Part shown: one piece after another, positions 10,215-25,956 of the stretch
Layout: every line of letters starts with the position of its first letter
How positions within the stretch are numbered: the first letter of the stretch is position 1
DNA from: a virus
IMG/VR virus record: IMGVR_UViG_3300034073_001851
Coordinates: 1-31,966 of that record
Reading direction: 5' to 3' (one strand)
Length of the DNA: 31,966 bases
The notes under the pieces: model-generated
What the model was told of the DNA's origin: nothing
Seen by the model: the letters and a program-made list of their open reading frames with translations, nothing else
The model's database searches: none
Program-made: the position numbers and the translations under genes

Positions 10215-10796
10215 TTATAGTATGATTTTTTTATTAAAAGAATATTCTAATCTAATATCTTGTGCTAAAGAATGCATCAATATTTGATGACAATCTTCTA
10301 CAATACCATAATTGTTAGAGTTAACATGAATGCATATATCACTAAGTTTTTTACATTCTCCTCCATCAAAACCAACAAATGATATGGTTTTTATATTCAA
10401 TTCTTTAGCAGTTTTAATTGCAGTAACAACATTTTTTGAATTTCCACTAGATGATATTACAAACAATACACAATTCTCTGATCCATACCATTCCAATTGT
10501 TTGCTGAATACATATTCATATCCAAAATCATTGGCAATAGCAGTTAACAAGGAAACATTAGAAGTCAATGAAATAACTTTAGTATGTACTTCAGTATCTG
10601 TTCTAATTCCTTTCATATGATCACATGAAAGATGTTCTGATATAGCAGAAGAACCTCCATTACCACATACAAAAATTGTTTTATTATTATTTGCACATGA
10701 TAATAAAGATCGTTTTACTTCTTCCAATGAAAAAAGATTTATTTGATTTAATGCATCATTTAACATCTTTTGGTAAGATATGATATAATTATTCAT
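10215..10796 (-). CDS. gmhA: Sedoheptulose-7-phosphate isomerase (GmhA-like)
   Basis: 193 aa, a single SIS domain. FVCGNGGSSAISEHLSCDH and then VISSSGNSKNVV are the phosphosugar-binding loops of GmhA; H and E residues late in the chain (EDCHQILMH) fit the active site. GmhA converts sedoheptulose 7-phosphate to D-glycero-D-manno-heptose 7-phosphate. The length equals bacterial GmhA. ATG at 10796 overlaps the stop of hddA (ATGA). It is the last gene of the heptose operon. Confidence 0.9.
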   Translation of the reverse strand: MNNYIISYQKMLNDALNQINLFSLEEVKRSLLSCANNNKTIFVCGNGGSSAISEHLSCDHMKGIRTDTEVHTKVISLTSNVSLLTAIANDFGYEYVFSKQLEWYGSENCVLFVISSSGNSKNVVTAIKTAKELNIKTISFVGFDGGECKKLSDICIHVNSNNYGIVEDCHQILMHSLAQDIRLEYSFNKKIIL

Positions 10797-11770
10797 GAAC
10801 ACATCTCTATAGAACTGCCTTTATCTGTAAATTTAAATTTCACTAGATTTTTATTTGAAAATAAATCAAGGAATTTATTTTGATTTTGTTCTGGTACATA
10901 GAACATAAAATATCCTCCTCCACCAGCACCTAACAACTTACCACCAAGTGCACCAGATTTCAACCCATAATCATATATTTCATCTAATAAAGGATTGGTG
11001 ATATTTGTTGATAGTGTTTTTTTAACTTTCCAAGATTCATGCAATAATGAACCAAAGTCATCTAATTTGTTTTGTTGTAGATAGGAAATAGATTTTTCTG
11101 CCATATCAACTAATATTGATACATCAGATACTTTTTTATTTTCTGATAGATTTTGAACTTGTTCTGCCAATATATCAGAAGCAAATCTATCTGTTTTTGT
11201 ATTAACAAAAAATAATCTTTGATTTAAGTTTTGTTTAGTGAAGAAATTAATTTCAATTGGTTTTACTTCTACATCATACTTATTAAATATGAAACAATTC
11301 AATCCACCATATGCTGCTGCATATTGGTCTTGTTTTCCAATAGGTTGTTTGCATCTATCAATTTCAATATAAGACGACAATTCTGCTAACATTGCTGGAC
11401 TCAATGCACAATTATATTTCATATAATGTAAAGCATTAATCAGTCCTACAGTAAATGTAGATGATGAACCAAGTCCAGTTCCTTTTGTAGGAACATCAGA
11501 GAAACTAGCAATTTCAATGTTATTTTTAATATCATAATGCTTTAGAATTTCTTTGATTCTATCGTGTTCTATATCATCAATAGTTTTTGGATATTCCATT
11601 TTAGAATAAACAAGTTTGATATGATCTGCAACACAAAAATTTGAAGCAATGTAAATGTGTTGATTGATAGTAGTTGATACTACCAATCCTTCATTGTTTT
11701 CATAATATTGTGGTATATCACTGCCACCACCAAAGAAACTTATTCTTAAAGGAGTTTTTGTTAATATCAT
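10793..11770 (-). CDS. hddA: D-glycero-alpha-D-manno-heptose-7-phosphate kinase (HddA-like, GHMP family)
   Basis: 325 aa. The GHMP signature GTGLGSSSTF is at residues 97-106, the start LTKTPLRISFFGGGSD is typical of HddA, and the C-terminal GALGGKLLGAGGGGYF is the second GHMP glycine motif. HddA phosphorylates heptose 7-phosphate at C1 to the alpha-1,7-bisphosphate, the branch leading to GDP-heptose of capsules and S-layers rather than ADP-heptose of LPS core. The start overlaps the SDR stop (TAATG). Confidence 0.9.
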   Translation of the reverse strand: MILTKTPLRISFFGGGSDIPQYYENNEGLVVSTTINQHIYIASNFCVADHIKLVYSKMEYPKTIDDIEHDRIKEILKHYDIKNNIEIASFSDVPTKGTGLGSSSTFTVGLINALHYMKYNCALSPAMLAELSSYIEIDRCKQPIGKQDQYAAAYGGLNCFIFNKYDVEVKPIEINFFTKQNLNQRLFFVNTKTDRFASDILAEQVQNLSENKKVSDVSILVDMAEKSISYLQQNKLDDFGSLLHESWKVKKTLSTNITNPLLDEIYDYGLKSGALGGKLLGAGGGGYFMFYVPEQNQNKFLDLFSNKNLVKFKFTDKGSSIEMCS

Positions 11771-12735
11771 TATATTTCTTCTCTAACATCCAAGATCCAC
11801 TGATTGTTTTCTAACCAATCTAATGTACGAACAATTGTTTCTGGTATAGAATATTTTGGATTCCATCCCAGAGAAATTAATCGGGACACATCTAAATAAT
11901 TGATCTTACTATCACCAATCCATCCTACTTCATTGCCCGACCAAGTAATCTCAGGATTAATTTTCATATAATTAATAATAATTGGAATAGATTCTGTGAG
12001 ACTACAAGTAGTTGTATTTCCTATATTGAATATATTAACAGGATTATTAGTATTACTAACAATTGTTAACATTGCATCTATACAATCATCTACATCCAAA
12101 TATGTTTTTCTTTGATCTTTACCACCATGTACATATAATTCATTAGGATTCTTTTTCAACATGGAATAAAAATTATAAATGAATCCATGAGAATATCTTG
12201 GACCTGTTATTGATGAATATCTAAAGATCCAAGATTGTGTATCATATGCGGCACAATGTGCTTGTACTAATCCTTCACCTGCTAATTTTGCTGCTCCATA
12301 AAATGATGTTTGTATAAAAGAACTATTTTCTGGAGTAGGAATTATTTCTGAATCTCCATATACTGCTGAAGTAGATGAATAAGCAATCTTTTTAATTTCT
12401 CTTTGTTTGATCCAACGAAGAACATTATAAGTTGCAAGTATTCCATCATTAATATCTTTGTCAGGATAAACAGAACTAAATCTAACATCTGCATTTGCTG
12501 CTAAATGAAATACCATTTCAATATCAGATTCAACAATCTCATTTAGAGAATTAGGTTTTGACAAATCTATATCATAAAATTTAAAATTATTGTATTCATT
12601 TAATTCTTGAAGAATTTTTTCATGCATTGGTTGAAATCTACTTACACCAATAATTCTGATGTTAGATTGAAGCAACCTTAATGTAAGATTGCTTCCGATA
12701 AATCCACAACAACCAGTAATCAAAACTGTTTTCAT
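11770..12735 (-). CDS. NAD-dependent epimerase/dehydratase (extended SDR)
   Basis: 321 aa from the ATG at 12735, chosen for GAGGATAAT upstream and because TGCCGFIG then falls at residues 7-14, as expected for the nucleotide-binding loop. The catalytic pair is Y146-GAA-K150, with the serine in YSSTSAVYGDS. The sequence resembles the GalE/WcaG group acting on nucleotide sugars. In this operon it probably modifies the activated heptose (epimerisation, reduction or 4,6-dehydration), but the exact reaction cannot be told. It sits between GT4 and HddA. Confidence 0.85.
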   Translation of the reverse strand: MKTVLITGCCGFIGSNLTLRLLQSNIRIIGVSRFQPMHEKILQELNEYNNFKFYDIDLSKPNSLNEIVESDIEMVFHLAANADVRFSSVYPDKDINDGILATYNVLRWIKQREIKKIAYSSTSAVYGDSEIIPTPENSSFIQTSFYGAAKLAGEGLVQAHCAAYDTQSWIFRYSSITGPRYSHGFIYNFYSMLKKNPNELYVHGGKDQRKTYLDVDDCIDAMLTIVSNTNNPVNIFNIGNTTTCSLTESIPIIINYMKINPEITWSGNEVGWIGDSKINYLDVSRLISLGWNPKYSIPETIVRTLDWLENNQWILDVREEI

Positions 12736-12742
12736 ATTATCC

Positions 12743-13795
12743 TCAAGTTCTATAAACAAAATATTTGGTTGGAAGTGCTCTTGATTCTGCTGTAGGATAC
12801 TTAGCATTCAACTCTTCTAGAATTCGTATCCACTTACTATAAACAAATTCTGTATTATATCTATTTTGAATATATCTACGAATAAACTTTAATGATTCTA
12901 TATGAGATGGGTCATTATTTCTTACATCTTCAATTGCTTGTTTAAGATTCAAATAATGAATTCCAGCATGTTCATTAGGATTCTCAGAACCATTATACAT
13001 ATACTTATTCAAAGCACCAGAAGTATCTGGTAATGCTGCTAGGTCTGGATGAACACATACCATACCATAATACATTGCTTCAAGCAATGCTCTGCACATG
13101 GTTTCTGGCCATATATTTGGATATGCAAAAATATGATAGTTATCTCTCAATTCTTTTATTAAATCAGTATGCTTTGTAAATCCATGATATGTTATTTGTG
13201 GATGATCTTTACAAATATTAAATAACTTTTCATATTGTTGATCTCTAGCATCCCAACCATACATTTTAAAAGAAGAATGCACATGAAGATGAATGTTCTT
13301 ATCTTCTTCTGCCAATTTCAAAAATACAGGAACCAGCAATTCCAATCCACGATGTGGGGTTGTATGATATGATATATTCACTACTTTCTTTGGATCTGGT
13401 TTCTTTGGTAGTTCAGGATCTTTTTCATATGAATCTATACAATGCATACCACCTTCTATAACACTACATTGTGATGAATATGGTGCACCAATTGCTGCTA
13501 CGAAAGTATTATAATGCCAATTAGATAAAAACACCATTTTATGAAAACTGTTTTTCATTTCTTCAGATTCAAAAGGTTTTCTACTTTCTGGATCATTTGG
13601 TAGATTATGTTCAAACCAAATTCGTATTTTATCTTCTTTTAGTTGTCGTAATCTACTTGGAATGATTTGAACATTTTCTAATAGATGTCGAGGAATATGA
13701 CCATCATATAGAAACCTCATATACATCTCAGTTCCACCTGATGCATTTGAGTTAGAAATTTCATTTGTTTCCATCAAATCAAAATTATCTTGCAT
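12743..13795 (-). CDS. Glycosyltransferase, GT4-like (GT-B fold)
   Basis: 350 aa. The C-terminal half shows the GT4 donor-binding pattern: KKVVNISYHTTPHRGLELL, then FAYPNIWPETMCRALLEAMYYG, with the E-x7-E acidic pair, and CVHPDLAALPDTSG. The N-terminal half (ASGGTEMYMRFLYDG, IWFEHNLPND) is the acceptor side. It probably transfers the operon's activated heptose to a phage or host acceptor. GGAGATAGAG precedes the ATG at 13795, which overlaps the end of the phosphatase gene. No membrane segment is seen. Confidence 0.85.
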   Translation of the reverse strand: MQDNFDLMETNEISNSNASGGTEMYMRFLYDGHIPRHLLENVQIIPSRLRQLKEDKIRIWFEHNLPNDPESRKPFESEEMKNSFHKMVFLSNWHYNTFVAAIGAPYSSQCSVIEGGMHCIDSYEKDPELPKKPDPKKVVNISYHTTPHRGLELLVPVFLKLAEEDKNIHLHVHSSFKMYGWDARDQQYEKLFNICKDHPQITYHGFTKHTDLIKELRDNYHIFAYPNIWPETMCRALLEAMYYGMVCVHPDLAALPDTSGALNKYMYNGSENPNEHAGIHYLNLKQAIEDVRNNDPSHIESLKFIRRYIQNRYNTEFVYSKWIRILEELNAKYPTAESRALPTKYFVYRT

Positions 13796-14330
13796 TCTCT
13801 ATCTCCATAATTGTATGACAAGCATTGTATATATTAGTTGTTTTATAAACAGGATAACAGAAATCATATTCTGGAGGACATGAATACTTATATTCATTCC
13901 CAACAAAAATGGTTTTCAAACCACTTCTATTTCCTGGAACAATGTCTTTCCATCTATCTCCAATCAAATAACTATTGTCTCTATCAATATCATACTTATT
14001 GATAAGATATTCAAACATTCCATTATTAGGTTTGTAATCGTTTGAACTTTTATCTAAAGCACAAACGATTTCATCAATTTGTAGAGTTGATTTTAACATA
14101 TCACAAATAAGATCAAGTTCATCTTTGCTCATATCTCCATCTTTTACTCCAGGTTGATTTGTAACGATGAAGGTCATGAATCCTAAAGATTGAACTAATG
14201 AAAAAGATTCTTTTACTTTTGGAAAAAACTTAAATTCTGCCAAAGTCCATGGAGAAGTAAAAGAACCATCTTTTCTTTCTACTAATTCATTAATAACACC
14301 ATCTCTATCAAAGAACACTGCTTTTTTCAA
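13785..14330 (-). CDS. gmhB: HAD phosphatase, heptose-1,7-bisphosphate phosphatase-like (GmhB)
   Basis: 181 aa. DRDGVIN at residues 8-14 supplies the nucleophile Asp and acid/base Asp, then IVTNQPG and GDRWKDI complete the HAD motifs, in the histidinol-phosphatase/GmhB branch. It would release phosphate from C7 of heptose 1,7-bisphosphate. The start codon is TTG with AGGAAAAG upstream, set inside the last codons of the nucleotidyltransferase gene (23-base overlap). The zinc loop of E. coli GmhB (CxH..C) is not evident. Confidence 0.85.
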   Translation of the reverse strand: MKKAVFFDRDGVINELVERKDGSFTSPWTLAEFKFFPKVKESFSLVQSLGFMTFIVTNQPGVKDGDMSKDELDLICDMLKSTLQIDEIVCALDKSSNDYKPNNGMFEYLINKYDIDRDNSYLIGDRWKDIVPGNRSGLKTIFVGNEYKYSCPPEYDFCYPVYKTTNIYNACHTIMEIENAR

Positions 14331-14724
14331 TTCTTTTCCTCAATTCAGTTGAACTATAACTATGTTTTCTATTTAAATAAACAATCTTGATATTTCTCTC
14401 TTCACATATCTTTTGTCCTGTTATCGATTGACCAAGATATTCTTCTCCCATAAATCTTACATTAATTGATTCTATTGCTAGAATGTTTTCTAAATCATTT
14501 TCTGTGTCATATGGAATTACTTGATTTACTAATTTACAAGACACCAATTGTACATATCGTTCATACATTGATTGAATAGGAATGTTTTTGTATGAACGAT
14601 CTGTTTGAGGATTGGTATGCAGTCCAACGATTAAATAATCACAATGTTGTCTTGCTTCTTTAAATAAAGCAAGATGTCCAGGATGTAAAAGATCAAATGC
14701 ACCGCATGTAAATCCAACTATCAT
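14308..14724 (-). CDS. Cytidylyltransferase-fold nucleotidyltransferase (HldE C-terminal-like)
   Basis: 138 aa. GAFDLLHPGH at residues 8-17 is the HxGH nucleotide-binding signature, and KHSYSSTELRKRI near the end is the usual SSTxIR-type motif. This is the fold of HldE's C-terminal domain and of glycerol-3-phosphate cytidylyltransferase. In context it should activate heptose 1-phosphate to NDP-heptose. This is unusual beside HddA, whose normal partner HddC has a different fold. The nucleotide used (ATP, CTP or other) is not readable. ATGA overlap with the upstream gene. Confidence 0.85.
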   Translation of the reverse strand: MIVGFTCGAFDLLHPGHLALFKEARQHCDYLIVGLHTNPQTDRSYKNIPIQSMYERYVQLVSCKLVNQVIPYDTENDLENILAIESINVRFMGEEYLGQSITGQKICEERNIKIVYLNRKHSYSSTELRKRIEKSSVL

Positions 14725-21061: not shown

Positions 21062-21290
21062 TAGATTTCTCCTTCAAATCTAGTTCATTAGTAATAGTCA
21101 TACCGCCTGCTAGATATAATGGCATATAGGCATCACCACCAAATCCCATCTTATTATAAATGAGATATCTAAAGGTTCCACCTTCAATAGCATTATCTAC
21201 AATATTTTCCATTACCCAAGCAGTGATTGCTAATTTAGTTCTATAATCACAGTTCTTGACTAATTCATCTAATTCAGTAAATTCAGACAT
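21024..21290 (-). CDS. Hypothetical phage protein at the end of the NAT-repeat block
   Basis: 88 aa, MSEFTELDELVKNCDYRTKL..., helical, with MENIVDNAIEGGTFRYLIYNKMGFGGDAY and a charged tail (KEKSNVQIQKEDTNIR). Its ATG lies in the last codons of the ELENV end of 21283..21477, the same junction design that links the repeat genes to each other. Function unknown. Confidence 0.7.
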   Translation of the reverse strand: MSEFTELDELVKNCDYRTKLAITAWVMENIVDNAIEGGTFRYLIYNKMGFGGDAYMPLYLAGGMTITNELDLKEKSNVQIQKEDTNIR

Positions 21291-21477
21291 TTTCTAGTTC
21301 CTTATAAATGGCATTATTAGTGATATTCCAAGTGATATTATAAGTGACCTCATAAGCTGGAAACAAAGTAACATTTTTAGTGGAATTATCAATGATATGA
21401 TAAGCAGCATGATGGGTGGCAATATCAGTCGAATTCCAAGTCGAAATTCTAATGGCATCTTTGATTTTATTCAACAT
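21283..21477 (-). CDS. NAT-repeat family protein (degenerate repeats)
   Basis: 64 aa, MLNKIKDAIRISTWNSTDIA..., ending VTYNITWNITNNAIYKELENV. The X-N-[AVI]-T period is visible but worn (WNST, DNST, KNVT, YNIT, WNIT). Head and tail match the family (M-NK-KDA start; NAI-x-x-ELE-x-V end). Function unknown. Its end carries the start signals of 21024..21290. Confidence 0.75.
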   Translation of the reverse strand: MLNKIKDAIRISTWNSTDIATHHAAYHIIDNSTKNVTLFPAYEVTYNITWNITNNAIYKELENV

Positions 21478-21655
21478 GTTCTAGTTCCTTTTCAATTTCA
21501 TTGAATATAACATTATCAAGAATACTGCGTGTGAAATGAAAATAATCAGTAAAATATAAAACTGACCATGTTGCTTCTTTTGTAGCACGGTAAATTGATA
21601 CATCAAGAATTAATCTATTATATGTATTAATATCATCTACGATTTTATTTGACAT
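21467..21655 (-). CDS. ELEHV-family protein, largely repeat-free
   Basis: 62 aa, MSNKIVDDINTYNRLILDVS..., ending NVIFNEIEKELEHVE. It keeps the family head (MSNK) and tail (KELEHVE) but the middle has only traces of the four-residue period (YRATKEATWSVLY). Overlaps the next gene by 11 bases, with AAGGAACTAGAACATG serving both as codons and as translation start signal. Function unknown. Confidence 0.75.
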   Translation of the reverse strand: MSNKIVDDINTYNRLILDVSIYRATKEATWSVLYFTDYFHFTRSILDNVIFNEIEKELEHVE

Positions 21656-21836
21656 GTTCTAGTTCTCTTTTGATAGCAGTCAAAATACAAGATATTGATG
21701 TATCTGTTTTATGTAAAATAACATATGAAGTAGAATAATAAACAGGTTTCCATGTATCATTTGAAGTGGCAGCAGTAACAGTTCTGCCGATGTTATTTGT
21801 TATATTCCTAATTTCATTCCATGTTTTATCTGACAT
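21645..21836 (-). CDS. ELEHV-family protein, partial repeats
   Basis: 63 aa, MSDKTWNEIRNITNNIGRTV..., ending ISCILTAIKRELEHVK. Partial repeats at the start (RNITNNIGRTVTAATSNDTW). Same junctions as its neighbours. Function unknown. Confidence 0.75.
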   Translation of the reverse strand: MSDKTWNEIRNITNNIGRTVTAATSNDTWKPVYYSTSYVILHKTDTSISCILTAIKRELEHVK

Positions 21837-22032
21837 TATACAGAGTCTCTTTTATTTGAAGACGAAGAGAATCAAATGTTGCTTCTGTCATTCGTTCTCT
21901 TACATTATCAAGTACTATATCTTGTAAATAATCACGTGTCAAATCATCCAAAAAGGTCATTGTTGAAGTTCCGAAATAATGTGTGCCTACTTTATGTGTT
22001 TTGATTTTCACAAAGTTCACTGGTTTAGACAT
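21826..22032 (-). CDS. Small protein inserted in the NAT-repeat block
   Basis: 68 aa, MSKPVNFVKIKTHKVGTHYF..., ending LRLQIKETLYNVR. It shares size, MSK start and overlapping junctions with the family but has neither NAT repeats nor the ELEHV end, so it may be an unrelated gene carried in the same cassette slot. Function unknown. Confidence 0.7.
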   Translation of the reverse strand: MSKPVNFVKIKTHKVGTHYFGTSTMTFLDDLTRDYLQDIVLDNVRERMTEATFDSLRLQIKETLYNVR

Positions 22033-22255
22033 GTTCTAGTTCTCTTTTGATAGCATTCCCAGTAGCATTAAAAGTGACATTCCAAATGGCATTATCAGTG
22101 GCATTCCAAGTAACATTATAAGTGACATTATAAGTAGCATTATAAGTGACAGTTCTAGTGGCATTATCAGTGACAGTTCTAGTGGCATTATCAGTGGCAA
22201 TCCAAGTTGCATTTCTAGTGACATACCAAATGGCATTCTTTGTTTTATTTGACAT
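22025..22255 (-). CDS. NAT-repeat family protein (clear repeats)
   Basis: 76 aa, MSNKTKNAIWYVTRNATWIA..., with about 16 units of X-[ND]-[AV]-T (RNAT, WIAT, DNAT, RTVT, YNAT, YNVT, WNAT...), ending GNAIKRELEHV. The first position of each unit is mostly Trp, Tyr, Arg or Asp. There is no signal peptide, membrane segment or catalytic motif. The antisense frame is also open (MPLGMPLIMP type) only because the DNA repeat is a multiple of three. Function unknown. Confidence 0.85.
   Translation of the reverse strand: MSNKTKNAIWYVTRNATWIATDNATRTVTDNATRTVTYNATYNVTYNVTWNATDNAIWNVTFNATGNAIKRELEHV
22040..22235. repeat. 12-bp tandem repeat tract inside the NAT genes
   Basis: Degenerate 12-mers of the form AGTGGCATT-NNN on the plus strand (NNN-AATGCCACT on the minus), about 16 copies in frame. 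Similar tracts lie at 23700-23852, 23890-24035, 24070-24248, 25440-25575 and 25625-25760. Confidence 0.9.
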
Positions 22256-22430
22256 GTTCTAGTTCCCTATCAATAGCATTCCTAATTGCGTTAAAAGTAG
22301 AATCACTTGTGGCATTCAAAATGACATTAATTGTGATATTTCTAGTGACATCCAAAGTAACATCACATGTGACATTCTTAGTAGCAACATAAATAGCATT
22401 GACCGTTACATCATTGATTTTACCTATCAT
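22245..22430 (-). CDS. NAT-repeat family protein, first gene of its block
   Basis: 61 aa from the ATG at 22430, which has GGAGAATTTG just upstream; the open frame runs back through a terminator hairpin. MIGKINDVTVNAIYVATKNVT..., ending NAIRNAIDRELEHVK. About 12 four-residue units, V-rich (DVTL, DVTR, NITI, NVIL). It follows the hairpin at 22444..22471. Function unknown. Confidence 0.8.
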   Translation of the reverse strand: MIGKINDVTVNAIYVATKNVTCDVTLDVTRNITINVILNATSDSTFNAIRNAIDRELEHVK

Positions 22431-22443
22431 CAAATTCTCCATA

Positions 22444-22471
22444 TGAAAAGAGTCCCAGTTACGGGACTCTC
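22444..22471 (-). terminator. Terminator hairpin ahead of a NAT-repeat block
   Basis: AGAGTCCC-GTAACT-GGGACTCT followed by TTTCAT on the minus strand, then ATATGGAG and the first NAT gene. The U-run is short, so partial read-through is likely. Confidence 0.75.
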
Positions 22472-22477
22472 TCAGTA

Positions 22478-22825
22478 TCAATCTTCAACTCTTCTATATC
22501 CTTCTGGTACATACTCCCTCTGACGGCGAACATGATATGTTCCCTTCTCAAATAGAATGGGTTCATGTGTATCATAATCACGGAGATGCTCTAGAGCAAC
22601 AGGATCATTTACAACAAGTAGACAATCCATGATAGAGTCAGGAAGTTGATACATCTTTACCTTCTCCTTCTCCATCACATGATTATGACCAGTCTCGGAG
22701 TGGGTAACAACTACATACTTACCAACTGGCGGCACTTCAACAGCATTTGCAGGAATTGGTGTATCAATGCGACGGATGTAAATATCACCTTGAGCCGCAC
22801 AATTAACAAATCGACGAATATTCAT
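22478..22825 (-). CDS. Conserved phage hypothetical protein
   Basis: 115 aa, MNIRRFVNCAAQGDIYIRRI..., with VVVTHSETGHNHVME and DYDTHEPILFEKGTYHVRRQREY. The three blocks are a pattern I recognise in many phage genomes (a beta-rich protein with conserved HSETGH-H and THEPI-F-G-Y-VRRQREY), without known function. GGAGAAAT precedes the ATG at 22825, which overlaps the stop of the HNH gene. Promoter 23467..23495 lies upstream of both. Confidence 0.85.
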   Translation of the reverse strand: MNIRRFVNCAAQGDIYIRRIDTPIPANAVEVPPVGKYVVVTHSETGHNHVMEKEKVKMYQLPDSIMDCLLVVNDPVALEHLRDYDTHEPILFEKGTYHVRRQREYVPEGYRRVED

Positions 22826-23433
22826 TTTATTTCTCCTAAGTTTTTCCATGTTAAGTTACGACATATTTTATATATAGTATTTCTGCTTACTTTATATTCT
22901 CTCATCAAGTCTGCTTGTTTTACACCATTGTTAAACCTCTTTCTTATGTCTAAGACATCTTTTTCTTTCAATATATGCTGACTGTGATTTTCTCCTTTTT
23001 GTTCTGGAGGTAAAACTGCTCTGTTTTTATTTCTACAATCAGCATTATTTTCTGCTGCTGTTCCTAGCCAAAGATGATTAGGATTTACACAACTAGAATT
23101 ATCACATGTATGACACACAAATTTATCGTTGTCAATATATCCATTACTTAGCAAAAAAGAATATCTATGTGCCCTAACAGACTTTTTGTTGTCCAATATA
23201 AATTCGCCATAACCCTGTTTATTTTTATTACCTAACCAAACCCAACATCCATTTTCATTACTTTTATCAACTTTTTCCCAGAACCTAACCGATTCTTCTT
23301 TTTGTCTTTTAGGTCTTTTATATGGTTGTTTTTCAGGTAACATATTATGACGACTATAATATAGATAATGTTTTTTACACAATCCTCTGGATTTAACATT
23401 ATTTTTACATGTGTTTACAGAACATTTTATCAT
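22822..23433 (-). CDS. HNH endonuclease with C-terminal helix-turn-helix (homing type)
   Basis: 203 aa. An N-terminal cysteine cluster (KCSVNTCKNNVKSRGLCKKH) is followed by NGCWVWLGNKNKQGYGEF and the core FVCHTCDNSSCVNPNHLWLG, a His-Asn-His active site of the HNH_3 type. It then carries a helix-turn-helix (KQADLMREYKVSRNTIYKIC) for DNA binding. Such free-standing homing endonucleases copy themselves into new sites. It sits between the promoter and the gene that promoter would have served. Confidence 0.9.
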   Translation of the reverse strand: MIKCSVNTCKNNVKSRGLCKKHYLYYSRHNMLPEKQPYKRPKRQKEESVRFWEKVDKSNENGCWVWLGNKNKQGYGEFILDNKKSVRAHRYSFLLSNGYIDNDKFVCHTCDNSSCVNPNHLWLGTAAENNADCRNKNRAVLPPEQKGENHSQHILKEKDVLDIRKRFNNGVKQADLMREYKVSRNTIYKICRNLTWKNLGEIK

Positions 23434-23466
23434 TTATTACATTTATCTTTTATTGATGATGGTATA

Positions 23467-23495
23467 ACTATACACTACTTATGTGATGTTGTCAA
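23467..23495 (-). promoter_or_regulatory. Sigma70-type promoter
   Basis: TTGACA, 17 bp, TATAGT; overlaps the end of 23479..23679 and reads into the HNH gene and 22478..22825. Confidence 0.9.
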
Positions 23496-23679
23496 GTGAA
23501 AATAATACTCTGTGAAGTTCTTGTTTTATGATAAAATCTGTTGGAAAAGATATTCTATTTATCTTTCCACATGTATGAGAATCAATTTCCATATATGAAC
23601 GAAAATCCAATATGTGATAAATTCTTTCATCTACTAAATGTGATATATGATTTGTCATTTTGTTTGTTTTATTCAACAT
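23479..23679 (-). CDS. NAT-family-linked protein, repeat-free, last in block
   Basis: 66 aa, MLNKTNKMTNHISHLVDERI..., ending FIIKQELHRVLFSLDNIT. Family head (MLNKT) and a worn tail (KQELHRV) remain, the middle is ordinary sequence. Its 3' end contains the next promoter. Function unknown. Confidence 0.7.
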   Translation of the reverse strand: MLNKTNKMTNHISHLVDERIYHILDFRSYMEIDSHTCGKINRISFPTDFIIKQELHRVLFSLDNIT

Positions 23680-23866
23680 GTTCTAGTTCTCTGACAATAG
23701 CATTCAAAGTGTCATTATCAGCGACATCCCAAGTGGCATCCCAAGTGGCATTACAAGTGGCATTATAAGTGACATTACTAGTGGCATTTTCAGTGGCATT
23801 TTCAGTGGCAACCCTAGTGGCATTATAAGTGGCATTATAAGTGGCATCTTTTGTTTTATTCAACAT
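23669..23866 (-). CDS. NAT-repeat family protein (clear repeats)
   Basis: 65 aa, MLNKTKDATYNATYNATRVA..., about 13 units (ENAT, SNVT, YNAT, CNAT, WDAT), ending NAIVRELEHVE. It shares a block SNVT-YNAT-CNAT-WDAT with the next two genes, both in protein and in DNA, which implies recent duplication. The last 11 bases overlap the following gene. Function unknown. Confidence 0.85.
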   Translation of the reverse strand: MLNKTKDATYNATYNATRVATENATENATSNVTYNATCNATWDATWDVADNDTLNAIVRELEHVE

Positions 23867-24053
23867 GTTCTAGTTCTCTGACAATAGCATTCTTAGTGGC
23901 ATTATAAGTGGCATTCCTAGTGGCATCCCAAGTGGCATTACAAGTGGCATTATAAGTGACATTACTAGTGGCATTTTCAGTGGCATTATAAGTGGCATTC
24001 CAAGTGGCATTCCAAGTGGCATTATAAGTGGCATCTTTTGTTTTATTCAACAT
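23856..24053 (-). CDS. NAT-repeat family protein (clear repeats)
   Basis: 65 aa, MLNKTKDATYNATWNATWNA..., about 13 units, ending KNAIVRELEHVE. Near-copy of its neighbours, differing mainly in number and identity of units. Overlaps as in the rest of the family. Function unknown. Confidence 0.85.
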   Translation of the reverse strand: MLNKTKDATYNATWNATWNATYNATENATSNVTYNATCNATWDATRNATYNATKNAIVRELEHVE

Positions 24054-24264
24054 GTTCTAGTTCCCTATCAATAGCATTATAAGTGGCATTCCTAGTGGCA
24101 TCCCAAGTGGCATTACAAGTGGCATTATAAGTGACATTACTAGTGGCATTCCAAGTGGCATTCCAAGTGGCATCCCAAGTGGCATTTTCAGTGGCAACCC
24201 TAGTGGCATTATAAGTGGCAACCCTAGTGGCATTCTTAGTGGCATCTTTTGTTTTATCAATCAT
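24043..24264 (-). CDS. NAT-repeat family protein (longest repeat run), first in block
   Basis: 73 aa, MIDKTKDATKNATRVATYNA..., 15 consecutive units (KDAT, KNAT, RVAT, YNAT, RVAT, ENAT, WDAT, WNAT twice, SNVT, YNAT, CNAT, WDAT, RNAT, YNAI), ending DRELEHVE. The second of two adjacent ATGs is better spaced from GGAGTG. It follows a hairpin at 24279..24310. Function unknown. Confidence 0.85.
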   Translation of the reverse strand: MIDKTKDATKNATRVATYNATRVATENATWDATWNATWNATSNVTYNATCNATWDATRNATYNAIDRELEHVE

Positions 24265-24278
24265 CATTCACTCCATAT

Positions 24279-24310
24279 GAGAAACGGGAACATTTTTGCT
24301 CCCGTTCTCT
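24279..24310 (-). terminator. Terminator-like hairpin ahead of a NAT-repeat block
   Basis: GAGAACGGGA with loop, then TCCCGTTTCTC on the minus strand, followed by ATATGGAG. It lacks a true U-run, so may be an attenuator or processing site rather than a terminator. Confidence 0.55.
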
Positions 24311-24316
24311 TTTCAG

Positions 24317-25354
24317 TTATGTACGAACTTCCGGAACCACAAACTCATTCGTATCCATTCCAAAAGTCCAAGCATTGGCCTGTAAAGCAGTCTTCATATC
24401 AGGTGGAACTGGCAAAGCAAACTCTCGACCTGTTCCACACTTTACACGAAGAAACTTCTCAGTTCCAATGTCAGGCAATGTAACCTCCAATAGTTCACCA
24501 ATCTCTGGATCACCATCAGTATCAATTACCTTAGCATCAAGTTCTGCCAGGATCTTTGCCCAACCAAGAATCTCACATGCCGCACGGCGTTGCTCAATAT
24601 TCTGCCATGTAATTGCTTCCTTGGCACTCAATGACTTGGTATCCATAATCCAATGCTCAGGAACAGATACACCATGCCAATGATATAGTGACCAACCATC
24701 AGACCAACGATGTGAAGGACCATTCTGTAAATGAGCACGATTCTGGTCATCAATCTTCAGCACTTGTGGAAAGTCCGAAACAATACAGAACTTCTCATGC
24801 ATAACACGGAATGTACCATGAATGGCTGCTTCTTCCCAATACTTATACTTCTCATACTCAGGAAGTTGAAGACCAATCACATCCCGCATAGCAGTAAGAT
24901 AAACATCATACTGTGCCCAATATGCACCACCCTGATACACATTTGACCACTGCTTTGCTTCTGAAATACCCTTCTTGCCTGCGAGTTTCTTACATACTTC
25001 AACATACTTTGAAACAACACCACCTGAAGAAGTATCAACGGCATTGAATGCTTCTGTAACAGTATCCATTACAGTTTGTGCATCCTGTGCGTTCTTCTTT
25101 GAAAGAAGGGCAGAAGCAGCACCATACATGAATACCATCTGGATTGGTGACTTAGCAAGAACAACAATAGGCTTTGCTAGATCAGCAGCAGCATATAGAC
25201 CTTCAATAGCAGGCTTTAGTTTAGTAAAGTCCGTAGGAGTTGTGCGTAGAATCATCTTGATCCACTTATCGGTATGCTCCTTGAGCAGTATCTTCTCCTC
25301 TTCAGTGATACCACCAGAAGCCTTAGTAGGAGTACGAACGATATTGTTAGTCAT
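24317..25354 (-). CDS. DUF6745-like protein
   Basis: 345 aa. The middle GPSHRWSDGWSLYHWHGV then VPEHWI is the mark of a family I associate with DUF6745, found in phages and actinobacterial or proteobacterial repeats-type genes, function unknown. An Ala-rich N-terminal half (KPAIEGLYAAADLAKP) and a C-terminal beta part (LLEVTLPDIGTEKFLRVKCGTGREFALPVP) complete it. AAGGAACTG precedes the ATG at 25354 and a strong promoter drives it. The DUF number is from memory. Confidence 0.75.
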   Translation of the reverse strand: MTNNIVRTPTKASGGITEEEKILLKEHTDKWIKMILRTTPTDFTKLKPAIEGLYAAADLAKPIVVLAKSPIQMVFMYGAASALLSKKNAQDAQTVMDTVTEAFNAVDTSSGGVVSKYVEVCKKLAGKKGISEAKQWSNVYQGGAYWAQYDVYLTAMRDVIGLQLPEYEKYKYWEEAAIHGTFRVMHEKFCIVSDFPQVLKIDDQNRAHLQNGPSHRWSDGWSLYHWHGVSVPEHWIMDTKSLSAKEAITWQNIEQRRAACEILGWAKILAELDAKVIDTDGDPEIGELLEVTLPDIGTEKFLRVKCGTGREFALPVPPDMKTALQANAWTFGMDTNEFVVPEVRT

Positions 25355-25383
25355 TGATCAGTTCCTTTGTTGATTAGGATGTA

Positions 25384-25412
25384 ACTATAGCATATGGAAG
25401 GATGGAAGTCAA
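25384..25412 (-). promoter_or_regulatory. Sigma70-type promoter
   Basis: TTGACT, 17 bp, TATAGT with TGC before the -10; its -35 overlaps the end of the NAT gene 25409..25594. Confidence 0.9.
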
Positions 25413-25594
25413 GAGATATTTTTCAATTCCATTTCAATAGCATCCCAAGTAGCATTATAAGTGGCATTCAAAGTGTCATTATCAGTGACATCCCAAGTGG
25501 CATCCCAAGTGGCATCATAAGTGACATTATCAATGGCATTTATAGTGGCATTATAAGTGACATTATAAGTGACATCTTTTGTTTTATTTGACAT
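25409..25594 (-). CDS. NAT-repeat family protein, last in block
   Basis: 61 aa, MSNKTKDVTYNVTYNATINA..., units including NVTY, DATW, DVTD, NDTL, ending WDAIEMELKNIS. The block DATWDATWDVTDNDTLNAT is shared with the neighbour and with 23669..23866. The tail ELKNIS differs from ELEHV, perhaps because no family gene follows. Function unknown. Confidence 0.85.
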   Translation of the reverse strand: MSNKTKDVTYNVTYNATINAIDNVTYDATWDATWDVTDNDTLNATYNATWDAIEMELKNIS

Positions 25595-25778
25595 GTTCTA
25601 GTTCTCGCCTGATAGCATCTTTAGTATCATTAAAAGTGACATTTCCAGTGGCAGTCCAAGATGCAATTGTGGCAGTTCTAGTGGCATTCAAAGTGTCATT
25701 ATCAGTGACATCCCAAGTGGCATCCCAAGTGGCATTATAAGTGGCATTATCAATTGTATCTTTTGTTTTATTTGACAT
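25584..25778 (-). CDS. NAT-repeat family protein
   Basis: 64 aa, MSNKTKDTIDNATYNATWDA..., units to NDTLNATRTATIASWTATGN, ending KDAIRRELEHVK. One unit is broken (IASW), showing the repeat tolerates change. Overlaps the next gene by 11 bases. Function unknown. Confidence 0.85.
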   Translation of the reverse strand: MSNKTKDTIDNATYNATWDATWDVTDNDTLNATRTATIASWTATGNVTFNDTKDAIRRELEHVK

Positions 25779-25956
25779 CTATCATTATCCTATCAATAGC
25801 AAGAACAAGAGTTCCTCTTTCAATAATTCTATCTTTGTAGACATAACCAAAGATATACTGGTCAATACTAAATTCAATAGCAGAACATATAACATAATCA
25901 TTCAACATAAATGTTGTCTTATCTTGTGTTCTTCTATGTATCCAATCTCTTTTCAT
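25768..25956 (-). CDS. Possible repeat-free member ahead of the NAT block
   Basis: 62 aa, MKRDWIHRRTQDKTTFMLND..., ending TLVLAIDRIMIDVK. The tail AIDRIMIDVK resembles AIDRELEHVK and it overlaps the next gene by 11 bases, but there are no repeats. Overlaps the upstream phosphoesterase stop (ATGA). Function unknown. Confidence 0.65.
   Translation of the reverse strand: MKRDWIHRRTQDKTTFMLNDYVICSAIEFSIDQYIFGYVYKDRIIERGTLVLAIDRIMIDVK

Follow-up and report, generated by a model that had tools for sequence, protein, structure and literature searches.

Short strict repeats are known from the pentapeptide-repeat proteins among small bacterial and phage proteins, and a tetrapeptide repeat, NANP, is known from the circumsporozoite protein, a eukaryotic surface protein whose repeats have no variable position like the one described here. 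In a virus record of 31,966 bases (IMG/VR record IMGVR_UViG_3300034073_001851, referred to here in its full length as the window), we analyzed a row of 13 minus-strand mini-genes, seven of which encode proteins built from a four-residue unit, X-[ND]-[AV]-T, with a variable residue X; the row flanks a gene for a protein with the domain DUF6745 (PF20530). Already known are the Pfam entry, which holds DUF6745 as a domain of unknown function, and two PHROG families of unknown function, phrog_8332 and phrog_18326, that partly match the window mini-proteins (best E values, 6e-7 and 3e-4; low-complexity matches at profile positions 154 to 228 of 248 and 110 to 170 of 203, respectively). Among the papers listed, titles and the opening parts of abstracts yielded nothing on DUF6745 or on this period-4 repeat, the searches turned up neither a functionally assigned family model nor a solved structure for it, and within the database and literature searches made, the repeat class and the gene arrangement are apparently undescribed.

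The mini-genes differ from pentapeptide-repeat genes in having a period of 4 rather than 5 and in the predicted helical structure of their products, and 10 mini-proteins gave no pentapeptide match in Pfam; an initial annotation made from the DNA letters alone had also set the repeat apart from that family. The NANP repeat was weakly matched by a profile (A3) of repeats carried in cis, that is, inside DUF6745 proteins (E = 6e-5), and this match looks compositional, as do weak matches of repeat regions to Pfam, PHROG (including phrog_430, a tail lysozyme), NCBIfam, PADLOC, and PDB sequences, which we rejected as evidence. PADLOC gave no match for the window DUF6745 protein, for L263, or for two mini-proteins and one weak repeat-region match in L228. 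In an annotated phage collection, BLAST with the window DUF6745 protein matched 11 records and BLAST with L228 matched 2; the array region, one member of a second carrier family (see below), and one X-D-S-V mini-gene found no match there, which is a weak negative because low-complexity sequence was masked. The G-N-V-T strings of tail-fiber-like proteins are a tetrapeptide repeat found by the same DNA pattern as the mini-genes, and G-[ND]-V-T strings in long proteins with tail-fiber-like ends dominate among the matches listed from the first IMG/VR scan (at least 120 stretches; L004 to L121). These strings were rejected as relatives, as their X is a fixed Gly, the proteins are long and structural looking, and none of 20 such contigs carries DUF6745. 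Targets of diversity-generating retroelements resemble the in-cis repeats, in which X is likewise NNC or NNG like with a nearly fixed third base. The mini-genes differ from them in forming many tandem targets and in keeping the A of the Thr codon unit after unit over the length of whole genes, which, by direct reading, speaks against such a retroelement; a reverse transcriptase and a template repeat were not searched for. Finally, many DUF6745 members carry a period-4 repeat with a variable X, as the mini-proteins do. The two share the kind of repeat, whereas the domain is absent from the mini-proteins (no DUF6745 match by Pfam in 10 of the window).

We conclude that the mini-genes are very probably protein coding and that X has probably been diversified. 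Tentatively, and at a little less than even confidence, we favor the explanation that the mini-proteins are small cytoplasmic helical hairpins with a diversified X, an in-trans counterpart of an arm that DUF6745 proteins of other phages carry in cis. The initial annotation had recognized the repeat family; the link to DUF6745, the in-cis version, the X-D-S-V arrays, the overlapping start and stop signals, and the diversification of X were not part of it.

The mini-genes encode proteins of 61 to 76 amino acids (aa), lie on both sides of the DUF6745 gene, and comprise seven repeat genes, one decayed gene (21283), and five siblings without a clear repeat. The region is identical to part of a 149-kilobase (kb) IMG/VR contig (L150, L206), whose DUF6745 protein is 100% identical to that of the window and whose mini-proteins are the same letter for letter. 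The features of the region, 21283 to 25956, are as follows (overlaps in base pairs [bp]).

25768 to 25956, minus strand: mini-gene sibling, 62 aa, no clear repeat; 11-bp overlap with the next mini-gene
25584 to 25778, minus strand: X-[ND]-[AV]-T mini-gene, 64 aa
25409 to 25594, minus strand: X-[ND]-[AV]-T mini-gene, 61 aa, tail DAIEMELKNIS
25384 to 25412, minus strand: sigma-70-like promoter match TTGACT-17-TATAGT with TG before the -10 element, just upstream of the DUF6745 gene; consensus match only
24317 to 25354, minus strand: DUF6745 protein, 345 aa, repeat free; residues ~84 to 119 are the place of repeat insertion in other phages
24043 to 24267, minus strand: X-[ND]-[AV]-T mini-gene, 74 aa
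23856 to 24053, minus strand: X-[ND]-[AV]-T mini-gene, 65 aa, inside the 187-bp tandem copies
23669 to 23866, minus strand: X-[ND]-[AV]-T mini-gene, 65 aa, inside the 187-bp tandem copies
23479 to 23679, minus strand: mini-gene sibling, 66 aa, head MLNKTNKM, no repeat
22245 to 22430, minus strand: X-[ND]-[AV]-T mini-gene, 61 aa from the ATG at 22430
22025 to 22255, minus strand: X-[ND]-[AV]-T mini-gene, 76 aa, 15 units; predicted helices at residues 3 to 37 and 44 to 75
21826 to 22032, minus strand: mini-gene sibling, 68 aa, no repeat; starts within the tail of 22025 (8-bp overlap)
21645 to 21836, minus strand: mini-gene sibling, 63 aa, tail RELEHVK, at most traces of the repeat
21467 to 21655, minus strand: mini-gene sibling, 62 aa, tail KELEHVE, at most traces of the repeat
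21283 to 21477, minus strand: decayed period-4 mini-gene, 64 aa (RIST WNST DIAT ... YNIT WNIT NNAI), tail KELENV

The seven open reading frames (ORFs) that the initial annotation had named are all present on the minus strand, at the coordinates that it gave, with in-frame 12-bp repeats, and direct reading of 22025 bears out its figure of up to 15 units. The head and tail that it had called fixed are less so: M-[LS]NKTKDA is exact in only two of the seven, with M-[LS]NKTK in five, and NAIxRELEHV is exact in five, with RELEHV in six. Its estimate of about 10 such or related genes grows to the 13 counted here. Gene 22245 probably starts at the ATG at 22430 instead of at the mechanically called TTG; this start was our choice, and the junction analysis took a start 6 bp further in. 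Tandem Repeats Finder reported 43.8 copies of the 12-bp repeat at 23730 to 24245 and, at 23663 to 24220, a gene unit of 187 bp present three times in tandem, and strict X-[ND]-[AVI]-T units number 66 across eight window genes. Chance is excluded, as a three-unit pattern matches three times and its reversed control not at all. A second frame is also open over window positions 22036 to 24260 (minus strand), giving ORFs of 47 to 67 aa with M-P-L-X repeats, as follows from a repeat period of 12 bp; there is no sign of its use. Sigma-70-like matches across the region are not in excess (26 found versus 28.8 expected).

Of the 11 junctions between neighboring mini-genes, 9 have an overlap of 11 bp and 2 have one of 8 bp. 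A Shine-Dalgarno-like stretch lies within the tail codons, reading AGRGAAC at six junctions and AAGGAAC or CGAGAAC at three, and at 6 of the 11 the junction DNA is AGRGAACTAGAACATG or nearly so, uniting the RELEHV codons, the Shine-Dalgarno stretch, and the start of the next gene. Since the tail codons double as the ribosome-binding site and ATG of the following gene, the constant tail and head are at least partly a signal for translational coupling.

The neighbor at 24317 to 25354 is a clear DUF6745 member (77.4 bits against a gathering cutoff of 27; E = 1e-21; residues 179 to 338). In other phages, the in-cis repeat sits at one place in all 17 proteins in which both flanks could be aligned, replacing the stretch of the window protein between residues 73 to 114 and residues 111 to 139. 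Our in-cis set consisted of 70 distinct arrays of at least 10 units each, shorter arrays being left out, and 15 came from bacterial genome contigs. The commonest unit ending was A-T in 52 of these proteins, S-V in 17, and Q-V in 1, and the second residue was D, N, A, Q, E, G, or S; across the class, the period-4 units include X-N/D-A-T, X-D-S-V, X-Q-A-T, X-S-Q-V, and others. The largest in-cis array has 175 strict units (L141). Among published phage records, MW202476 has X-S-S-L units at the corresponding place (UOF77368.1; L377:5350-6627) and prophiGD102-1 gp38 has X-[GD]-Q-L units there (QSM05137.1; L379:4068-5513), both proteins being annotated as hypothetical, and gp174 of Microcystis phage LMM01 is a DUF6745 member without a repeat. 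The neighbors of the LMM01 gene encode DNA polymerase, dUTPase, uracil-DNA glycosylase, and clamp-loader proteins; the gene of prophiGD102-1 is near ERF and RepA genes, and that of MW202476 is near integrase and DNA adenine methylase genes. The surroundings are thus replication or early genes in two of the three records. A second family of carriers (L263, L296, L298, and L288) has X-D-S-V units in cis; several members start with MCxFFS, and a GLVPSFDGKIWRLH-like block lies at the C terminus. Three members tested had no match in Pfam.

Phages differ in the DNA that encodes one and the same kind of peptide unit, which is AAT GCC ACT in the window and L196, AAT GCC ACA in L125, and GAT GCA ACG in L078. 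Codon versions of the tetrapeptide that differ between phages include AATGCCACT, AATGCCACA, and GATGCAACG, and the S-V codons of the sister unit X-D-S-V vary in the same manner (TCTGTT, TCTGTA, TCAGTA, TCAGTT, and AGTGTG). Among five window paralogues (10 pairs), we counted 8 to 28 replacement versus 0 to 6 synonymous codon differences. With the motif written in varied codons and replacement changes exceeding silent ones, a noncoding satellite, for which synonymous and nonsynonymous changes in near-equal proportion would have spoken, is unlikely, and the earlier suggestion of a selected, expandable coding family holds. The N-x-T sequons that the initial annotation had noted are a side effect of the motif, and nothing points to a secreted or glycosylated product.

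Diversification of X is seen in cis. Median entropy at the three bases of X was 1.54, 1.00, and 0.08 bits in the 70 arrays. Codon 2 had values of 0.18, 0.92, and 0, the third base had a median of 0 in codon 3 and likewise in codon 4, and mean X entropy exceeded that of both silent sites in 68 of 70. Extra X codons, counted when present at least twice, comprised 203 replacement and 7 synonymous variants, and there were 87 kinds of core (codons 3 plus 4), i.e., 17 beyond one per array. Window units were picked by residue, so that silent change in them can be read only from the third base of codon 3 and that of codon 4; the X codon had entropies of 1.29, 1.30, and 1.49 bits versus 0.63 and 0.38 at these two bases (66 units). 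The residues found at X also depart from an independent choice of bases (2,110 codons). Cys occurs 6 times versus 85.6 expected, i.e., 14-fold less, and Gly (169 versus 296), His (74 versus 209), and Pro (3 versus 9.5) are also below expectation; Arg (621 versus 487), Asp (310 versus 230), Tyr (279 versus 189), and Glu (76 versus 29) are above it, and Trp is in slight excess only (224 versus 189). These figures are descriptive and carry no probability, because units are copied from each other and the avoidance of stop codons (27.7 expected) shifts the other values.

Some observations count against the favored explanation. The third base of X varies too in the window, and in two in-cis arrays (L322 and L267), a silent site is more variable than X. 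Along the arrays, X follows a nearly random order, and 68 X strings, 59 to 61 of them usable, were searched for a code by which the two hairpin helices would pair (opposite charges, large with small), which was not found. Combined z values were 1.9 for charge and 0.3 with size, and that for neighbor charge was 2.5; such values are at best weak, and we do not claim them as a code, since block duplication can yield them. In addition, Ala in the window units is GCC in 42 of 46 cases, compared with 9% of 222 Ala codons in the long genes of the phage. The silent core bases thus stay with a codon that is avoided elsewhere in this phage, and a constraint at the DNA level is conceivable.

Such a constraint would be expected if the repeat were a DNA element, a phage-specific core of 7 to 9 bp every 12 bp that serves binding, recombination, or slippage and is readable by chance, with X as a spacer. 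The near invariance of the silent core positions within each phage despite this atypical codon choice fits that view. However, the core DNA changes between phages while the peptide pattern is kept, X in cis varies at replacement bases and scarcely at the third base, its residue classes are constrained (the Cys shortage), and the repeats lie in frame with start, stop, and ribosome-binding site and at one defined place of a conserved protein, and we consider a DNA element improbable. The homogeneous silent sites show that the arrays are young or homogenized. A second possibility is that the repeats are functionless filler, tandem duplications that arose by slippage in dispensable or loosely constrained small genes and a DUF6745 loop. 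Unit numbers from none (the repeat-free DUF6745 proteins) to 175, the random-looking order of X, and sister phages without repeats in the same slots are what neutral filler would produce, but it predicts silent change similar to that at X, contrary to 68 of the 70 in-cis arrays, and leaves unexplained the shortage of Cys and Pro at X, the period-4 pattern in unrelated codons, and the either/or distribution described next. We regard it as unlikely, if somewhat less so than a DNA element.

The wider class was sought in IMG/VR, where a four-unit X-[ND]-A-T pattern matched 91 stretches and a five-unit pattern that includes X-[ND]-S-V matched at least 120. Beyond simple repeats and antisense readings, the matches were in-cis DUF6745 arrays, the second carrier family, and stand-alone arrays of mini-genes with a head and tail of their own (e.g., nine genes in L244, seven in L257, 12 in L305, and five each in L078 and L125). 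We chose 23 mini-gene contigs by eye. Left out were L077, L128, L176, and L190, as simple repeats or readings of the antisense strand, and L154, L218, and L233, whose ORFs resemble antisense or other low-complexity readings; L281, which the scan had not flagged, was added, and L323 is the same contig as L244. DUF6745 (E ≤ 0.001) was present in 13 of the 23 versus 0 of 20 tail-fiber contigs (Fisher P = 3e-5), in a sample that includes relatives (G023, G033, and G034; G031 and G038; G001 and G002), many fragments, and contigs picked by eye, with 20 controls of our own choice. The 13 are made up of 3 of 4 contigs (G001, G002, and G010 but not G011) and 10 of 19, and 11 lie above the Pfam cutoff, with G022 and G024 below it. 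The mini-genes are within ~5 kb of DUF6745 in 9 of the 13 contigs and within ~7 kb in 2 more.

Read singly, the DUF6745 proteins of these 13 contigs are repeat free, apart from one chance pair of units in L125; the reading covered one of the two copies in G029. Conversely, no credible mini-gene was seen in the loci of the 70 in-cis arrays, loci that are parts of contigs and in some cases 1 to 2 kb long. The ORFs flagged there (L154, L218, and L233) were rejected, as they look like other-frame or low-complexity readings. When nine in-cis contigs were scanned whole for A-T units, five had matches inside the DUF6745 frame (in G017, on the opposite strand) and four, whose units differ, had none. 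In the material seen, then, the repeat is a part of the DUF6745 protein or is encoded by separate genes close by, and no locus was seen with both. A partnership between mini-proteins and DUF6745, physical or otherwise, seems to us an evenly balanced proposition.

The following weigh on the other side. The 13 co-occurring contigs represent perhaps 9 or 10 lineages, and the 10 mini-gene contigs without DUF6745 are either fragments or a sign that the link is not obligatory. Seven of 10 contigs with a repeat-free DUF6745 protein (G003 to G009) had no match to the mini-gene pattern, the gene being cut by the contig end in L212 and L220, and LMM01 has no row of mini-genes annotated within 6 kb of its DUF6745 gene. 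In the sister loci L208 and L210, the mini-gene slots hold short nonrepetitive ORFs. These rows (L208:4874-8703 and L210:6770-7999) encode 63 to 80 aa, and some of their C-terminal ends resemble one another.

The filled slots of L208 bear on the idea of a nursery for gene birth, in which repeat expansions yield small proteins that later become repeat-free mini-genes of 60 to 75 aa around DUF6745. The window itself has a gradient that fits, from the regular 23856 through the decayed 21283 to the siblings 21467 and 21645, with similar heads and tails. Against it, sequence does not establish the L208 ORFs as homologues of the window genes, and the change may have run in either direction. We think such a nursery is not the likely explanation, about on a par with neutral filler.

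Structure prediction with AlphaFold suggests what the repeat may form. For the 22025 mini-protein, modeled with 13 aligned mini-proteins, two helices were predicted (residues 3 to 37 and 44 to 75; mean predicted local distance difference test [pLDDT] score, 66; predicted template modeling score, 0.35). For the in-cis protein of L149 (33 units; 21-row alignment), the repeat was modeled as long helices at residues 91 to 151 and 161 to 219 (pLDDT, 40 to 62), entered from a core helix at 68 to 87 and leaving into a helix at 229 to 237, and the N- and C-terminal core was confident (ten-residue blocks mostly at pLDDT 83 to 96). The model suggests that the in-cis repeat is an antiparallel hairpin arm, and we lean somewhat toward a helical repeat. 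Very close packing is possible for helices in which every fourth residue is small and has beta-branched neighbors, which would fit A or S at position 3 and T or V at position 4. In 74 mini-proteins, Pro accounts for 0.54% of the residues, against 3.6% in 19 long proteins of the window, a difference to which the fixed unit contributes. Units that favor a helix (X-Q-A-T, X-E-A-T, and X-[GD]-Q-L) are used by other phages, X-Q-A-T and X-[GD]-Q-L at the same in-cis place.

A helical repeat must be set against the fact that Asn, Asp, Thr, and Ser are poor helix formers, and the low pLDDT of the repeat in both models may reflect disorder. For the in-cis DUF6745 model, no known fold turned up to lean on: Foldseek against the PDB gave no match at E ≤ 0.001, the best Z score among the VIA-align rows listed was 5.4, these rows lying mostly on the long helix or a C-terminal piece, and the three matches in a viral structure library (E ≤ 0.001) were two DUF6745 proteins and an uncharacterized fragment.

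If disordered, the repeats might be sticker-and-spacer chains that form condensates or sequester a host protein or nucleic acid. An X that is mostly Arg, Asp, Tyr, Trp, Gly, and Ser, its random order, and the low in-cis pLDDT would suit such chains; the low Pro content and a Gly content of 2.7% in the 74 mini-proteins (partly due to the fixed unit), the existence of V, L, Q, and E unit variants, and the continuation of a confident core helix into the repeat in the L149 model would not, and we rate them as improbable as the DNA element. Much less probable still is the earlier proposal of a regular solenoid or fiber, a decoy, or a surface, ice, or wall binder. The regular period and the aromatic or charged X invite it, and T-rich repeats recall antifreeze proteins, yet AlphaFold predicts helices (at low confidence for the 15-unit monomer and lower in cis), inspection of the translated heads by eye revealed no obvious signal sequence, and the DUF6745 genes of two of the three published records keep company with replication or early genes.

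Other genes of the window stand apart from the array. Between mini-gene 23479 and gene 22478 lies an HNH_3 endonuclease gene (22822 to 23433, minus strand) with an HTH_7 match just under the cutoff; it is probably a homing-type insertion, as judged from gene content, since none is found among the listed plus-strand ORFs there in the sister locus L208. The small conserved gene 22478 to 22849 (minus strand) belongs to phrog_27831 (function unknown), and in L208 and L209, what look by eye to be its relatives are likewise found close to DUF6745. Farther away, at 10215 to 14724 (minus strand), translations resemble by eye genes for heptose-type sugar synthesis, with look-alikes of a sugar isomerase, kinase, epimerase, glycosyltransferase, phosphatase, and nucleotidyltransferase.

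In the favored explanation, the mini-proteins would be stand-alone versions of a variable-length helical arm that the DUF6745 proteins of many phages carry in cis, acting together with that arm or as its substitute. In each unit, position 4 would be beta-branched or aliphatic (T or V, elsewhere L), position 3 small or Gln (A, S, or Q), and position 2 mostly polar or Ala; helices with a small residue at each fourth position may pack closely, leaving exposed a diversified X at position 1, chiefly Arg, acidic, aromatic, or small residues. In this phage, DUF6745 would have lost the arm or never had it, and translationally coupled free arms would flank its gene instead. The repeats suggest that arrays grow by duplication of the 12-bp unit and of the whole 187-bp gene, and selection would keep and diversify X, which may serve as a contact residue. 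We speculate that the contact is with a host target in early infection, a timing suggested by the genes next to DUF6745 in LMM01 and prophiGD102-1.

A bolder, rather improbable extension is that phages maintain a combinatorial library of natural origin, built on a helical scaffold of minimal size. Each unit would offer one letter, chiefly basic (Arg), acidic (Asp or Glu), aromatic (Tyr or Trp), or small (Gly or Ser), and phages with NNC codons at X would arrive at much the same alphabet as those with NNG codons. Recombination would shuffle units and whole genes, and the arms, fused to DUF6745 or supplied in trans, would be selected to bind fast-changing host targets, e.g., defense proteins.

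If the favored explanation is true, phages have a widespread and apparently undescribed class of repeats, a four-residue unit strongly diversified at one position, which some build into a conserved protein and others encode as arrays of free mini-proteins. Such a class would provide a functional handle on DUF6745 and a very simple, evolvable protein scaffold.

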